NCBI GenBank assembly: GCA_003155495.1
Contig: PMDB01000072.1
Span: 1 to 48,857, forward strand
Origin: Ignavibacteriota bacterium
GTDB lineage: Bacteria > Bacteroidota > Ignavibacteria > UBA10030
DNA: 48,857 nucleotides
Direction of reading: 5' to 3'
Shown: positions 13,414 to 19,640 of the stretch, one piece after another
Position numbering within the stretch: the first letter of the stretch is position 1
Layout of the letters: each line of letters starts with the position of its first letter
Notes under the pieces: generated by a model
Database searches by the model: none
What the model was told of the DNA's origin: nothing
Seen by the model: the letters and a program-made list of their open reading frames with translations, nothing else
Program-made: the position numbers and the translations under genes

Positions 13414-15231
13414 ATGAATGGATTAATTATGAATGTCCCGGCATATGTCAAAAATGAAAAAGCAATTACCTGGATAAAAGATATTGCTGCATTAACAAAA
13501 CCAGACAATGTGTACTGGTGCGACGGTTCTCAAGCCGAAAATGATACTATGTATCAACAGCTTGTGAAGTCCGGATCATTCATAAAATTGAATGAGAAAA
13601 AACGTCCCAACAGCTACCTCGTCCGATCGGATGTGAGTGATGTAGCGCGCGTGGAAGATCGTACATTTATTTGCAGTGTAAAGAAGAGCGATGCGGGCCC
13701 GACAAATAATTGGGCTGATCCGCGGGAGATGAAAGTAACTTTGAATAAGTTATTCGACGGTTGCATGCGAGGACGCACTCTGTATGTTATCCCATTTAGC
13801 ATGGGGCCGCTTGGTTCTCATATCGCACACATCGGCATTGAGTTAACAGACTCACTGTATGTTGTTGTCAATATGCGAATTATGACTCGCATGGGAAAAG
13901 CTATTTGGGATGTGCTTGGCAGTGACGGCGATTTTGTGCCATGCGTTCATTCGGTTGGCGCACCATTGGCGCCAGGTCAGAAAGATGTTCCATGGCCGTG
14001 CAACAAAGAAAAATATATTGTTCACTACCCGGAAGAACATGCGATCTGGTCGTTTGGAAGCGGGTATGGTGGAAATGCTTTACTCGGGAAAAAATGTCTT
14101 GCACTTCGCATTGCCTCCACGATGGCGCGTGATCAAGGCTGGATGGCTGAACATATGCTCATTGTCGGGCTTGAATCTCCACAAGGACAAAAAACTTATG
14201 TTGCAGCTGCGTTTCCAAGCGCCTGCGGTAAAACCAACCTTGCCATGCTTATTCCTCCGGATGCTTTGAAAACATGGAAGGTCACGACAGTAGGCGATGA
14301 TATTGCATGGATTAAACCGGGAAAAGACGGCCAACTCTATGCCATTAATCCCGAAAACGGATATTTTGGAGTTGCGCCCGGTACTTCGGAAAAATCGAAC
14401 CCGAATGCCATGGTCACTATTAAAAAGAATTCTATCTTCACGAACGTTGCACTCACACCGGATGGCGATGTATGGTGGGAGGGTATGACGAAAACACCCC
14501 CTCCTCAATTGATTGATTGGACCGGACAACAATGGACTCCCGATTGCGGACGTAAAGCTGCTCATCCGAATGCACGGTTTACTACCCCGGCAAATCAATG
14601 TCCCTGTATCGATTCCGAGTGGGAGAATCCAAACGGTGTCCCGATAAAGGCATTTATCTTCGGCGGCCGCAGAAGTAATACAATGCCGTTAATCTGTCAA
14701 GCGGTGAATTGGGCGCATGGCGTTTATCTTGCTGCAACGATGGGCTCTGAGACAACAGCGGCAGCAGCGGGTAAGGTTGGGCAAGTACGCCGCGATCCGT
14801 TTGCAATGCTGCCATTCTGCGGCTACCATATGGCCGAGTACTTCGATCACTGGCTGACCATGGGCCGCCGCGTTGCTCATCCTCCGCGAATCTTTGGAGT
14901 GAACTGGTTCCGAGTCGATGAGAGCGGTAATTTTATCTGGCCGGGATATGGCGAGAATATGCGCGTGCTGAAATGGATCGTGGAACGCGTGAATGGATCT
15001 GCAAGAGGGTTTGAAAGTCCGCTTGGCTGGATGCCGCTCTATGAAGACATTGACTGGAATGGATTGGAATTTTCCCGGAAACAATTTGATGATTTGATGA
15101 AAGTGGATACGGAGTTGTGGAAAAAAGAAATCCAGCTCCATGAAGAGTTATTCATGAATCTTTACGACAAACTACCGAGAGAACTTAACTCTATTCGAGA
15201 ACTGCTGCTCTCCAGTCTTTTGCGCGGATAA
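13414..15231 (+). CDS. pckG: Phosphoenolpyruvate carboxykinase (GTP)
   Basis: 605 residues, the GTP-dependent family, which is unrelated in length and motifs to the ATP type. It converts oxaloacetate and GTP to PEP, CO2 and GDP. The kinase-1 loop FPSACGKTN holds the reactive Cys271 and Lys273 (positions 267-275). [11 protein letters not shown] and the C-terminal [19 protein letters not shown] nucleotide region are intact. ATG 13429, five codons in, is an equally possible start, since neither has a strong ribosome site. It lies downstream of aspC in the same direction, with a strong terminator after it. Confidence 0.96.
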
Positions 15232-15280
15232 ATAATTATGTAAAACAATTAAAATATCTTTTACTATTTTAGAATAGTGA

Positions 15281-15313
15281 AGCCGCTTTATCACAGTGAT
15301 GAAGCGGCTTTTG
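15281..15313 (+). terminator. Terminator after pckG
   Basis: AGCCGCTT (15281-15288) pairs with AAGCGGCT (15302-15309), and inside this T/G and ATCAC/GTGAT continue the helix almost to a 3-nt loop. A short T run follows (TTTTG). Confidence 0.85.
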
Positions 15314-15564
15314 TATTTATCTACTCTGTTCTCTTCCTTTTTTCTTGCCCTCATATCCAGAAACATGTATATTATAGAAGCAAAAATCTCAAATCTCTGA
15401 TTCGTACCATTGGGGGAATCGCCAATGACAGCTCTTGAGAAATCAAATGCAATATGAAGCACAAAGTCTATCTATCATCCTATTACGGACAAAATACAGA
15501 CTAAGTCTCCCGAAGGTGGCGAAGCCATACCATTGGTAGATGCCTTCGGCATATCTAATCACAT
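15314..15564 (+). other. Gene-free segment left of the cassette array
   Basis: About 250 bp with no convincing gene; a 16-codon ORF at 15454 is unsupported. The right part carries inverted repeats: CCCGAAGG near 15513 against CCTTCGGC near 15543, and ATGCC-TTC-GGCAT inside the latter. The segment ends at the GTTAGCG core where cassette 1 begins. It may contain an attI-like or degenerate attC site, but it lacks the CAGCTTA..CATCCGTTA block seen in the two clear attC sites. Confidence 0.4.
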
Positions 15565-15597
15565 GTTAGCGTGCCGCTGATAAGGGCAAGGAGTTCT

Positions 15598-16266
15598 ATG
15601 GACAGATCAGACGCAGATATGATTGTTGATTTTGCGAGGACTTACCAAGTTTGTCGAGAGTGTGGATTTGTCGATCGCGATCAAGGAAGACTCAAGGTAG
15701 GTTACAAATGTTCTGTTTGTGGTGTCCAGAGCGAAGGCGGCTTGATGTTCCTGGAACTCAATGTTCTTGTCCTCATTCGTCATATCTATGAGGCATACTA
15801 CTTTTCCGATACAGCAGTCGAAGAATCATACATGGCGGAACCAGAGGAATTCAAGGATCTGGCCGTCGTCGTTTTCTTCTGTATTCTTAAAGAAGTTCTC
15901 TTGGAAAGGTTTCTTTTAAACTTTATGCACGTACTGAATCTTCCTGAAGGAGTTATGACGAGAATGGAATCTGATAACGATTCCCACAGGCGCCGGCTAG
16001 AAAACCTATTTCCAAGTTTGACCGGTCAAAAGTGGAAAGATGTACTGTCAAAGCTCCCATCAAATGATCCAAAGAAGTACAATATCCTGGATGAGCTCCT
16101 CTTGCGTGCCACGAAGGCGAGAAACGAATTGCTCCACGAAGCCAATCACCACTCGATTACATCGAAGCTTGCAGAAGAGTGTTTTAATGCTATTCCGGTC
16201 TTACTCGATTGTTACAAGCATTTAAATAATATCTATGTTCACCCAGTAGTAAACGCGGCACGTTAA
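15598..16266 (+). CDS. Cassette 1: zinc-ribbon protein with HEPN-like domain
   Basis: 222 residues from the ATG at 15598. That start is chosen because AAGGAG sits 4 nt before it, although the frame extends back to a GTG at 15571. Cys19/Cys22 and Cys38/Cys41 form a CxxC-x15-CxxC zinc ribbon. The rest is alpha-helical and contains RNELLH (175-180), matching the RNxxxH motif of HEPN-fold ribonucleases, within LLLRATKARNELLHEAN. HEPN proteins often act in toxin-antitoxin or anti-phage systems. No antitoxin or nucleotidyltransferase partner is adjacent, so the activity is unproven. The stop codon lies inside the left end of attC1, the normal compact cassette layout. Confidence 0.75.
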   Translation: MDRSDADMIVDFARTYQVCRECGFVDRDQGRLKVGYKCSVCGVQSEGGLMFLELNVLVLIRHIYEAYYFSDTAVEESYMAEPEEFKDLAVVVFFCILKEVLLERFLLNFMHVLNLPEGVMTRMESDNDSHRRRLENLFPSLTGQKWKDVLSKLPSNDPKKYNILDELLLRATKARNELLHEANHHSITSKLAEECFNAIPVLLDCYKHLNNIYVHPVVNAAR

Positions 16267-16419
16267 CCAGGGCATCAAGCTGACCGGATGAGCGTTGGTA
16301 CGTTAAACATGGCGAGCATAGGTTTCGGTTCTTAATAATAAATTATTCAGCATGAACTTGTTTCGTTTGGTACATTTTGAAAGTTATCAGCGCGGCAGCT
16401 TAGCCGCCATCCGTTATAC
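16261..16419 (+). other. attC1 recombination site
   Basis: The inverse core CGTTAAC (16261-16267) overlaps the cassette 1 stop, and the core GTTATAC (16413-16419) starts cassette 2. Inner arms pair as AAGCTG (16276-16281) with CAGCTT (16396-16401), the usual L''/L' pair. Length is about 159 bp, at the long end for attC. The right end CAGCTTA..CGCCATCCGTTA is shared with attC2. Confidence 0.75.
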
Positions 16420-16473
16420 GGCATGCCTAAAAGCATTTTTTAATGCGCCTAAAAATATTTAAAGAATAGAGAT

Positions 16474-16548
16474 ATGAATACGCCAGTAATTAGACCACAT
16501 ATAAAGACAAGAAATACTGAGATTAGTGCATCGCAAAAACTTTTATAA
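16474..16548 (+). CDS. Possible 24-codon upstream ORF in cassette 2
   Basis: ATG 16474 to TAA 16546-16548. The stop shares its last A with the next ATG (TAATG), an arrangement compatible with translational coupling. It is only weakly supported: a purine-rich AGAGAT precedes it, there is no recognisable product, and an opposite-strand ORF overlaps the same bases. Confidence 0.25.
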   Translation: MNTPVIRPHIKTRNTEISASQKLL

Positions 16549-17243
16549 TGAGAATTAAAATGCAAACATATATCTTTATTTCTGCAAGCCTTAGCGCCTT
16601 GTTGCTCGCCATAGGTGCTTATATTTTCTTCTTCCATAAGACACCATCTATTTGGATATTTTTCTCTGGTATTGTTTTAGGTTTCCTTGCAGTAGCCCTT
16701 CATCTACAAGTAAAAGTATGGGATGAAGAACAAACTACATCTAAACAATCAATATCAACTGATACCACAAAAATAAAACAACCAAAAATTGAAAATCATT
16801 TAAGCGCTTCTGAAAAACCAATCGTAGAGATTTCAAACGCCATTATCACAAAGATTGATGGCTCTGCGGTGACAGTATTTATCACGTTTTCCAACATTGG
16901 TAAAACCACCGCTACAAATGTAAAGATCTCTTCAGGTGCAAAATTAAACTATTCCCGCAATGATATAGATTTTACTGTCCCATATAAAAATGAGAACATC
17001 TTATCTGACATACCCCCAGGCGCGGGGAAAACAATGTTCCACACATCTGATTTTACTCCTGTTCCGCTCAATGTTGTTATCCAAAACAAAGGAATGTACT
17101 TTTATATATATGGGAAAATTGTCTATGGGAACGAAGTCAATAAAGATAAATACCGTAAACATTTTTCGTTTTTCTATGATGCAGAATTTAAAAGATTTAT
17201 TGATGTTGTTAATGGTAAATATCCGCCTGATCTTTTAAAATAA
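16548..17243 (+). CDS. Cassette 2: membrane-anchored protein of unknown function
   Basis: 231 residues, or 227 if ATG 16560 is used; neither start has a good ribosome site. Two membrane helices (about 7-29 and 34-54) are followed by a polar linker and a beta-rich domain of about 140 residues. That domain reads like an Ig-like or fibronectin-like fold (VEISNAIITKIDGSAVTVF, then ITFSNIGKTTATNVKIS, with a PGAGKTMFHTSDF turn). The short loop between the helices places the large domain on the same side as the N-terminus, probably the cytoplasm. I do not recognise a family. Codon use is AT-richer than the flanking housekeeping genes. The gene lies between attC1 and attC2. Confidence 0.7.
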   Translation: MRIKMQTYIFISASLSALLLAIGAYIFFFHKTPSIWIFFSGIVLGFLAVALHLQVKVWDEEQTTSKQSISTDTTKIKQPKIENHLSASEKPIVEISNAIITKIDGSAVTVFITFSNIGKTTATNVKISSGAKLNYSRNDIDFTVPYKNENILSDIPPGAGKTMFHTSDFTPVPLNVVIQNKGMYFYIYGKIVYGNEVNKDKYRKHFSFFYDAEFKRFIDVVNGKYPPDLLK

Positions 17244-17338
17244 TTCAATTCTCTAAAACGATAATGAATATGAAGAAATCCAACTCAAGAAATAAAAATA
17301 TTATGGGGCGCAAAACAAAAAAATAAGACAGGCATGCC

Positions 17339-17535
17339 GTATAACCAGCGCATCAAGCTGACGCAATTAGCCGAGTACGTTAGTCATTGCAAATGGTGGG
17401 TTTGTATTTTTATTATTACCTTTTCAGTACCTCGTTGGTTTGGGTTTAATTAATTCGGTTATCAGCATGAACTAGTTTTGTTTTGTGTATTTTGAGAGTA
17501 TTCAGTGGCGCAGCTTATGCGCCATCCGTTAGGAC
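17339..17535 (+). other. attC2 recombination site
   Basis: This is the best-preserved site. The inverse core GTATAAC (17339-17345) mirrors the start of cassette 2. GCGCATCAAGCTG (17348-17360) pairs with CAGCTTATGCGC (17511-17522) perfectly except for one unpaired C, the extrahelical base expected in attC sites and used by integrases to choose the strand. The core GTTAGGAC (17528-17535) starts cassette 3. At about 196 bp it is long. Upstream, 17244-17338 is AT-rich with no gene. Confidence 0.82.
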
Positions 17536-17562
17536 GCAACACCATAAACCAAAGAGTGAACT

Positions 17563-18426
17563 ATGGCAATACAAGATTCTAAATTAGAAAAAGAACTTCC
17601 CACTTTGGAAGAATTCTTAATTAATTCGCCCCCAGGTTCGGAAGCAACCATTAAAGTATCTGCGTATGAATACAACACTCAATATCCTCCCCAAAAATGG
17701 CAAATCGCATTAGAAGAATTGCAATTATTTTGTAAGAACGAATCCTGTAAAGGTATTCGTTTCTTTGAACCCACGAAGGAAAAAATTTACCCCCAAGAAG
17801 GTAAAGGTGAATTGCTATTTCTATCTTATCAATGCAAAAATTGTGAAGACACTATCAAAATATATCCTATTTTATTTCATTTACAGGATAGCAATAAGGC
17901 AACGATTGTAAAGATCGGCGAATGGCCTTCGTTTGGAACACCGACTCCTACTAGGTTGCTTTCGTTAGTTGGAAGCGAAAAAGATTATTTTTTAAAAGGC
18001 AGGAGAGCAGAGAATCAAGGGCTTGGTATTGGCGCATTTGCATATTATAGACGTGTAGTCGAGAATCAAAAGAATCGAATATTTGATGAGATAATTAAAG
18101 TTGTTGAGTTAACGAAATCGGATACTAGTTTGGCTGATGCATTGAGAAATGCAAAAAATGAAACACAGTTTACAAAAGCCGTCGAATCATTAAAAGGCGG
18201 CATTCCTGATTCACTACTAATTGATGGTCACAACCCATTGACTTTGCTGCATAGTGCTTTAAGTGAAGGATTGCATGCGGAAAGTGATGAGGATTGTTTA
18301 GAATTTGCAAATACGATTCGCATTGTATTATCCGCATTCGCAGAGCGGATTGGTGAGATTCTGAAAGATCAATCAGAGTTGAAGCAAGCACTTTCAAAAC
18401 TGTTATCAAAGAAAACGAATTCCTAA
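17563..18426 (+). CDS. Cassette 3: Cys4 helical protein of unknown function
   Basis: 287 residues. Cys57/Cys62 and Cys91/Cys94 could bind one zinc. The C-terminal half is helical: RRAENQGLGIGAFAYYRRVV (147-166) and LLHSALSEGLHAESDEDCLE (228-247). These two blocks resemble a conserved arrangement in uncharacterised zinc-finger/HEPN-like (DUF4145-type) proteins, but the RxxxxH catalytic motif is not evident. No signal peptide or membrane helix is present. The start lies 34 bp after the attC2 core with an AAAGAG site close by. The function is unknown; a defence or stress role would fit cassette cargo but is a guess. Confidence 0.7.
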   Translation: MAIQDSKLEKELPTLEEFLINSPPGSEATIKVSAYEYNTQYPPQKWQIALEELQLFCKNESCKGIRFFEPTKEKIYPQEGKGELLFLSYQCKNCEDTIKIYPILFHLQDSNKATIVKIGEWPSFGTPTPTRLLSLVGSEKDYFLKGRRAENQGLGIGAFAYYRRVVENQKNRIFDEIIKVVELTKSDTSLADALRNAKNETQFTKAVESLKGGIPDSLLIDGHNPLTLLHSALSEGLHAESDEDCLEFANTIRIVLSAFAERIGEILKDQSELKQALSKLLSKKTNS

Positions 18427-18483
18427 ATAATCTTAATGAAATATGTTGCGCATCCCGATTTATCGGGAGCCGGTCCGTTAGAA
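18427..18483 (+). other. attC3, decayed recombination site
   Basis: The right boundary TCCGTTAGAAC (18474-18484) is kept and starts cassette 4. The expected inverse core (GTTGCGTCCTAAC, the mirror of cassette 3's start) is missing. Only GTTGCG (about 18445-18450) remains, plus a weak TCCTAAA at 18421. The centre is occupied by an unrelated palindrome (18453-18468). It is probably no longer a full recombination substrate on the left side. Confidence 0.5.
18453..18468. repeat. Short palindrome inside attC3
   Basis: TCCCGAT-TT-ATCGGGA: a perfect 7-bp inverted repeat with a 2-nt centre. It has the look of a dispersed intergenic palindrome, and it sits where attC3's inner arms should be. Confidence 0.6.
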
Positions 18484-18583
18484 CGCAAAGATATATTGCG
18501 TTGTTATTTGAGGTGTGCAAAATATTTAGTGAAAACAGAAACTACCCATCGTGGTCGGTAAACCATTTAAAACAGGAGCAAGA

Positions 18584-19249
18584 ATGAAAAACTCATTGAT
18601 CTTATTATTTCTCCTATCCTCTTTAGCTTTTTCTCAAACTCCGACAAAAGTTGTCAATACGATGTCATCACCCTCAGTGAAGGACTCCACTGTGCTGTCA
18701 GAAATAAAGAAAAGCTATTCAAGGCAGATCGGGGCCGCGTTTAAAATGCTGGAGCATGTAATTGATAATGCCAATGATACAACATGGACGGCAAGAATAA
18801 GTAACGTGCCGTTTTGGCAGATATGTTATCATGTTCTATGGTTTACTGATTTTTATTTTCACGCCAATCAAGCAACTTTTCAACCTCAAAGTTTTGACAT
18901 GAAAGATATTCATAATTATTGGGTCTATCCAGATTCTCAAATGGTTGAGAATCAAAAGCATCCGATTTCAAAAAGTACTATGAAAGCCTATTGCAAATAT
19001 GTAAGACAAAAAGCAAATCAATTCATTCAAAATATAAATGATACTTATTTTACAACTCCATCACCATTTGAGTGGCAAGGTTTTCCTAAAATTGATTTAG
19101 TGGATTACAATCTTCGTCATCTTCAACATCATGTTGGACAATTGGATATTGTATTACGAAGGGAACAAAATATTGGAAATCCTTGGATTATGTTTGATGA
19201 TTTATCGGAAACAACAATTCTTCCGGTAGACACTTCACCGACAAAGTAA
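18584..19249 (+). CDS. Cassette 4: exported DinB-superfamily protein
   Basis: 221 residues from ATG 18584. AGGAG (18574-18578) lies 5 nt upstream, and this start exposes a signal peptide (MKNSLILLFLLSSLAFSQ); the frame itself runs back to 18551. The mature part is a four-helix DinB-like fold. Candidate metal ligands are the His in ICYHVLWFTDFYF and the two His in LRHLQHHVGQLD, matching the three-His pattern of the family. DinB proteins include thiol transferases and many of unknown role, and most are cytoplasmic, so an exported one is uncommon. It ends about 60 bp before the attC4 inverse core. Confidence 0.78.
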   Translation: MKNSLILLFLLSSLAFSQTPTKVVNTMSSPSVKDSTVLSEIKKSYSRQIGAAFKMLEHVIDNANDTTWTARISNVPFWQICYHVLWFTDFYFHANQATFQPQSFDMKDIHNYWVYPDSQMVENQKHPISKSTMKAYCKYVRQKANQFIQNINDTYFTTPSPFEWQGFPKIDLVDYNLRHLQHHVGQLDIVLRREQNIGNPWIMFDDLSETTILPVDTSPTK

Positions 19250-19310
19250 AACTATAGTGAACAATAGCAGCATGTAGAATAATGGTTAATTAAATTTGTA
19301 AACGTTTGCA

Positions 19311-19431
19311 TTCTAACCAGACGCTCCCGACCAACCCGCCACAAAGCTTGGCGGGTAAACAAGACGGTGGGCAGGCAAGCTCGGCTTGTCCAAATAACTG
19401 AATCACAGCCGGAGGCCCAAGACTGTTAGTG
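19311..19431 (+). other. attC4, terminal site of the array (right half degenerate)
   Basis: The inverse core TTCTAAC (19311-19317), extended leftward to 19307, mirrors cassette 4's start in 10 of 11 positions. The right core would be GTTAGTG (19425-19431). Inner arms do not pair convincingly, and a palindrome (19334-19356) plus a CAAGC-TCG-GCTTG hairpin (about 19376-19388) fill the middle. The left half is well supported and the right half is weak. Confidence 0.55.
19334..19356. repeat. Palindromic repeat inside attC4
   Basis: ACCCGCC (19334-19340) and GGCGGGT (19350-19356) form a 7-bp stem around a loop that contains AAGCTT. It looks like a dispersed intergenic palindrome, comparable in placement to the one inside attC3. 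Confidence 0.55.
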
Positions 19432-19640
19432 CACGAAGTACTGTTCGGATTGTCATCTATAATATCCTTGGTCAATTGGTTAGCGAATTAGTCAACACAG
19501 AGCAGCAAGCTGGATATCATTCGATAGTCTGGAATGCAAATGTATTTTCGGGATTATACTTCTATAGACTTGAAGCAGTTTCGGCGGGAGACCCTCATAA
19601 GAGATTCATTGAGACGAAGAAGATGCTGCTGCTACGTTAG
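19428..19640 (+). pseudogene. Decapitated T9SS C-terminal sorting domain
   Basis: Translated in the frame ending at TAG 19638-19640, this encodes about 70 residues: ARSTVRIVIYNILGQLVSEL, then a WNANVFSGLYFYRLEA strand and a KKMLLLR end. These are the middle and end of a type IX secretion sorting domain like those at 36.7-36.9 kb and 40.0-40.3 kb. There is no start codon. The frame is closed by TAA 19395-19397, and homology begins right at the attC4 core. The domain's own NYPNPF opening and all of its passenger protein are missing. The parent gene was therefore truncated at the array boundary. The following 180 bp to 19820 hold no gene I can support. Confidence 0.8.

Follow-up and report, generated by a model that had tools for sequence, protein, structure and literature searches.

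An integrase-less cassette array that retains attI downstream of pckG, in an Ignavibacteriota genome with many attI-headed arrays and palindrome-bearing attC sites

Downstream of pckG in a 48,857-nt stretch of DNA from an Ignavibacteriota bacterium (contig PMDB01000072.1, hereafter the window), we found a cassette array that is very probably the relic of a sedentary chromosomal integron, whose cassettes were once integrated at an attI site after pckG and whose local integrase gene, intI, has been lost. The array retains attI, a candidate promoter and four captured genes, while the integrase is gone. This agrees with the original prediction, made from the sequence alone, of four cassettes without an integrase and with all ORFs in the same direction: the window holds no integrase gene, and 4 of 4 ORFs lie on the + strand. 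An independent covariance model detects two attC sites (attC1 and attC2) without adjoining intI, which places the array among the CALINs, defined by at least two such sites. These integrase-less arrays are common, with 2961 counted, and have been proposed to be degraded integrons (PMC9024848). The window array is CALIN-like in its at least two attC sites, single cassette orientation and lack of a nearby intI, and differs in keeping attI and a promoter-like leader, as well as in belonging to a genome with many such loci. Complete integrons have previously been reported from this part of the tree, in Chlorobi and Ignavibacteriae (PMC9024848). Because degraded integrons, Ignavibacteriae integrons and intI loss have all been described, the window array alone is an ordinary CALIN member with its attI kept; what is unusual is the genome-wide multiplicity of attI and the confinement of palindromes to attC.

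The chromosomal left neighbor of the array is pckG (13414-15231, + strand), encoding a GTP-dependent PEP carboxykinase (Pfam PF00821, E 8e-169) and followed by a terminator at 15279-15311, found by a terminator scan. Next comes a candidate cassette promoter, Pc (TTGCCC-17-TATATT, 15345-15373, + strand), called solely from its match to the consensus; this leader occurs in six copies in the loci examined, five in the window's genome and one in a same-genus species (G002), and no intI was found in the loci carrying these copies. The attI site (15461-15568, + strand), recognized by its match to attI sites of related loci, reads GTCT, an insert, then ATCTAATCACATG^TTAG, with the crossover at G15565; the sequence GTCT..ATCTAATCACATG^TTAG (15500-15569) also heads other arrays of this genome and of its relatives. 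The insert is a 44-nt palindrome (15509-15552, no strand assigned), missing from the uninterrupted attI copies on contigs C55 and C90. The bounds first proposed for the array, 15565-19432, thus both needed correction: position 15565 belongs to attI, not to an attC, and there is no site at 19432, where the 5′ half of attC4 runs to about 19417 and is followed by a fragment of another gene.

To place this attI in a wider context, we searched for its 21-mer (18 defined bases, at most 2 mismatches) and found 10 copies in the window's genome and 1-8 per genome in five others of the genus; of 26 further genomes of the family, 2 had copies. As a control, the reversed 21-mer had no occurrence in 32 genomes. 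In a genome of another genus (G015), an intI lies about 100 nt away from one copy, and window-type attI sites stand beside intI fragments on C5 of the window's genome, on C15 of G005 and on C92 of G002. Intact intI loci carry a related yet distinct attI, ending TCTAATCATA^GTTA. The two attI types also occur in tandem on C29 of the window's genome (L060:1560-1620; ...TCTATTCACATG^TTAGGCTGCAATTTGCAGTCTAATCATAG^TTAG), as the orphan type and, about 30 nt on, the intact-intI type. These data bear on the idea that a trans-acting integrase placed the cassettes at a non-attI genomic site (attG), for which there is a precedent in Xanthomonas, where CALINs have been described at a distance from intI and integration at attG has been considered (PMC12444791). 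Since the site in the window comprises some 60-100 nt of conserved attI sequence together with a conserved leader, rather than a short chance site, and a similar attI beside an intI exists in G015, we consider this explanation very unlikely.

The same leader and attI are found downstream of pckG in G002, with a PckG protein 90% identical and a leader 85% identical over 179 nt, and none of the window's cassettes is present at that locus. Several attC sites of this G002 locus (C93, L098:4899-10227) have shrunk to 46-62 nt, consisting of R″-palindrome-R′ with most of the L boxes missing. No attI was detected in the sequence examined 3′ of pckG in G001 and G004 (1.9 kb in G004). At other loci, the genes upstream of the C5 attI are those of G001 C54, and the genes upstream of the C117 attI are those of G002 C92. 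Because flanking genes are common to the attI loci of different species while the cassettes differ, several attI loci are older than the species split, with the cassettes turned over later. Two orphan attI sites, on C55 and C90, lie beside a gene for a 342-aa secreted repeat-type protein (L062:5313-6338 and L111:6898-7923, 84% identical), and their leaders are 99% identical, as in a duplicated platform without intI.

The shared pckG-leader-attI order also addresses a possible assembly artifact, namely that the integron is complete and its intI sits on another contig. The genome is a draft in 119 contigs, and breakage of assemblies at attC repeats has been raised for CALIN counts (PMC9024848). 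Nevertheless, the left flank is continuous into pckG, the same order recurs in the assembly of the second species, and no intI scores over the cut-off genome-wide; this reading, already contradicted for the window, is therefore highly improbable, and we retain that of a relic integron.

We then assessed the attC sites. Given that our first covariance model contained the window sites and was thus circular, we rebuilt it from other species only, using 21 attC sites of three other same-genus species, nearly all in intact-integrase arrays, with the window sequence excluded. This model detected attC1 (16258-16419, + strand, 134 bits, E 3.4e-36) and attC2 (17336-17534, + strand, 127 bits, E 4.4e-34), both intact, while the third-best match in the window reached 7 bits (E 1.5). 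The sites predicted at 16261-16419 and 17339-17535, whose absence from covariance searches had been named as counting against an integron, are thus both present. The two are long near-repeats (74-83% alike), and the expectation of a poorly described attC lineage stands as regards long, mutually similar sites and is to be amended as regards the lineage, which is the genus's own attC family of about 150-190 bp. The other two sites, attC3 and attC4, have no significant match to the independent model (for attC3, none at E 0.01). Only the L′-palindrome-R′ half remains of attC3 (18444-18480, + strand), with an insert, TCCCGATTTATCGGGA, at 18453-18468 and 33 nt identical to the 3′ ends of seven other attC sites of the genome, and attC4 is a truncated 5′ half that carries a palindrome (19308-19417, + strand), 105 nt of it being 93% identical to an attC on C118 of the same genome.

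Canonical attC sites show pairing of R and L boxes and unpaired bases on the R″-L″ arm. The minimum-free-energy fold of the attC1 and attC2 bottom strands was no better than that of shuffled sequence (z 0.10 and -1.13), which probably reflects the long loop. As single-strand folding did not beat shuffles, we turned to covariation: the family stem has 22 pairs, with 96.8% of cells paired, and six pairs covary (23 compensatory cells vs. 4.3 in shuffles). The R″-L″ arm has two unpaired bases, in columns 19 (C) and 26 (A). The architecture of the family is therefore canonical. An Rfam scan of the array region gave no match even at E 1.

The 5′ start of an integron cassette is expected to be complementary to its own R″. 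In agreement with the mirroring originally reported, cassette starts are mirrored at their own 3′ ends in cassette 1 (12/13), cassette 2 (16/16, an exact 16-nt mirror of 16413-16428 with 17330-17345) and cassette 4 (12/13), whereas the attC of cassette 3 has lost its R″ half. Across 42 cassettes of this genome with inserted attC sites, 7.31 of 9 variable bases are mirrored, vs. 4.24 (sd 0.21) under random pairing, and the value in integrase-linked arrays of relatives is 8.26 of 9; this self-mirroring is far above chance. Cassette 1 (15566-16413, + strand, bounded by attI and the R′ of attC1; ORF 15598-16266) encodes a 222-aa protein with a zinc-ribbon-like N terminus, not assigned to a family. 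Beyond this N terminus, the protein carries an RNELLH motif (16120-16137), which we take to resemble the R-X4-H motif of HEPN domains, and for which family searches give no support. The proteins of cassette 2 (16414-17528, + strand; ORF 16560-17243, 227 aa) and cassette 3 (17529-18477, + strand; ORF 17563-18426, 287 aa) were likewise assigned to no family: family searches with the proteins of cassettes 1-3 returned weak matches alone, none of them trusted, and AlphaFold predictions of the proteins from cassettes 1 and 3, run without alignments, had a mean pLDDT of 41 and 44. Cassette 4 (18478-19313, + strand; ORF 18584-19249) encodes a DinB_2 domain (PF12867, E 3e-7).

While cassettes 1-3 are absent from the other loci examined, the DinB-like cassette 4 shares 89% DNA identity with the second cassette of an array at a different locus of another species (C39 of G001). 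Hence, the four genes are not all immobile, syntenic single-copy genes in relatives, the other finding named in advance as speaking against mobility, and cassette 4 indicates the movement of gene cassettes between arrays. To the right of attC4, the array ends with a 65-aa fragment of a type IX secretion sorting domain (19443-19640, + strand), 33-48% identical to the sorting domains at other array loci; as such domains are common in the cassettes of this genome, the fragment could represent the tail end of a further cassette, and their presence fits the Bacteroidota/Ignavibacteriota side of the tree.

A genome-wide search for intI and more attC sites, suggested as a check of the original prediction, yielded many attC sites and intI only as a fragment. 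The first covariance model, which included the window sites, gave 55 attC matches (E ≤1e-3) on 19 contigs, and the independent model recovers those matches in loci taken from these contigs. The integrase model TIGR02249 had no match above its cut-off in the window's genome, a 97% complete draft in 119 contigs, where it scores other tyrosine recombinases best, with no more than 86 bits vs. a cut-off of 265; an intI remnant with four stops lies beside an attI on C5. Given the state of this draft, we regard the absence of an intact intI as likely rather than proven. In contrast with the window's genome, matches over the cut-off occur in four of the genus's five other species (G001, G002 twice, G003 and G005) and in 10 of the 32 genomes of the family. 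Three same-genus species carry an intact intI (442-454 bits) beside arrays of the window's attC family, and the intI of G003 is slightly truncated (392 bits, without the first 35 positions). On C49 of G001, a second intI 3′ end (L016:6828-6932; 35 aa, 97% identical) lies just 3′ of the intact intI, as in a partial duplication.

The intact intI genes beside the same attC family, together with the attI that heads the window array, uphold the view that an integron integrase acted here or supplied the cassettes. Based on these data, we propose that the attI 3′ of pckG once received circular cassettes through the action of an integrase, that a promoter in the conserved leader probably drove their transcription, and that the local intI was subsequently lost. 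Two attC sites stay structurally sound, and the other two were broken by palindromic inserts and deletions. As the window's genome has at least 10 attI-type sites with many arrays, and sister species have kept intI intact, an integrase working from its own locus or in trans probably supplied the cassettes of these arrays. A similar history is known in Xanthomonas, where intI loss and additional CALINs at other loci have been described (PMC12444791). The Xanthomonas integron downstream of ilvD shares with ours an ancestral fixed position, lineage-wise loss of intI, species-specific cassettes and extra CALINs; it differs in having one intI position, as opposed to the at least 10 attI sites and palindrome-bearing attC sites of the window's genome (PMC12444791).

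The palindromes interrupt most attC sites of this genome. Among 37 well-delimited sites, 33 carry an R″-L″ insert (R″, TAACCAGGCGCT; L″, CAAGCTGAC) and 27 an L′-R′ insert, to be read as round figures of about 90% and 70%, respectively, since a few calls are loose or span assembly gaps. No true insert was found in 26 attC sites from integrase-linked arrays of relatives, the three flagged cases being explained by a duplication of R″, a gap in the assembly and a single-base variant. The R″-L″ inserts are 17-72 nt long and palindromic (mean z -2.8 vs. base-shuffled copies), and the two insertion points occupy equivalent positions in the opposite arms of the attC palindrome. Of the 21 exact copies of the 16-mer TCCCGATTTATCGGGA in the genome, 20 share one attC position and orientation and the remaining one lies elsewhere; CCCTCTAGAAAACAGAGGG has 12 exact copies, all 12 at the R″-L″ position. 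In G005, different palindromes (CGCCCGCC...GGCGGGC) occur at another fixed attC position, in the loop (L110:7940 and 9737; L101:5237), and are also found in attC sites of an integrase-linked array. On C30 of the window's genome (L195:2200-2640), two copies of GGTCGGGAGTTC-TCCCGAAGGGATTCCTTTGGAA-AAAATCTCCCCGCCCCGAC resemble the end of a tRNA gene into which a palindrome has been inserted.

Two origins can be considered for the inserts. They could be inherited parts of attC that spread with the cassettes rather than later insertions, in line with the recurrence of composite nested inserts in several cassettes and with the slightly greater likeness of the remaining attC sequence between sites of the same L′-R′ insert type (0.581 vs. 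0.548 for different types, p 0.01). Set against this, identical 16-nt inserts are found in attC sites whose cores are only about 57% identical, the R″-L″ insert type does not follow the core (0.568 vs. 0.556, p 0.155), and inserts of the two positions combine freely, so that inheritance appears to us a possible and rather doubtful origin. Since the inserts are identical and sharing an insert type hardly raises the likeness of the cores, the inserts seem to postdate the divergence of the attC sites, having either entered at a fixed target or been copied locally from site to site.

TnpA-REP, a Y1 transposase, cuts at CT beside its hairpin and moves REP palindromes (PMC8266576). The R″-L″, attI and main L′-R′ inserts directly follow CT (read on the bottom strand for L′-R′), and Y1_Tnp genes are present in all six genomes of the genus examined. 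Our inserts thus resemble the REP/TnpA-REP system (PMC8266576) in being short, multicopy palindromes preceded by CT in genomes with Y1_Tnp genes, and differ from it in that the two commonest inserts are nearly confined to attC and no transposase gene was found flanked by them; none of these inserts occurs in the flanks of the three Y1_Tnp loci of the window's genome (about 1.5 kb on each side). The CT match is a weak link to TnpA-REP. We tentatively suggest, as a scenario that is less probable than not, that a short palindromic element, perhaps moved by a REP-type Y1 transposase cutting at CT, targets the R/L-box junction of attC in either arm as well as attI, may recognize the hairpin in its single-stranded form, and would gradually silence the arrays of a genome that no longer has an integrase. 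Since recombination in other integrons is influenced by how the spacer between the R and L boxes is shaped (PMC2727003), the palindromic inserts probably impair the sites that carry them.

In the literature searched (open-licence papers), we found no report of genomes with multiple attI-headed arrays or of palindromes in attC. The usual picture of an integron combines a single integrase, a single attI and a single array. The genus described here keeps one or two integrases and several attI-headed arrays; therefore, the possibility that a single integrase acts in trans on many landing sites becomes testable. Tools for finding attC may overlook many of the palindrome-interrupted sites. Finally, the attC-confined palindromes show a way in which arrays may be silenced, and may bring to light an element whose targets are folded recombination sites.
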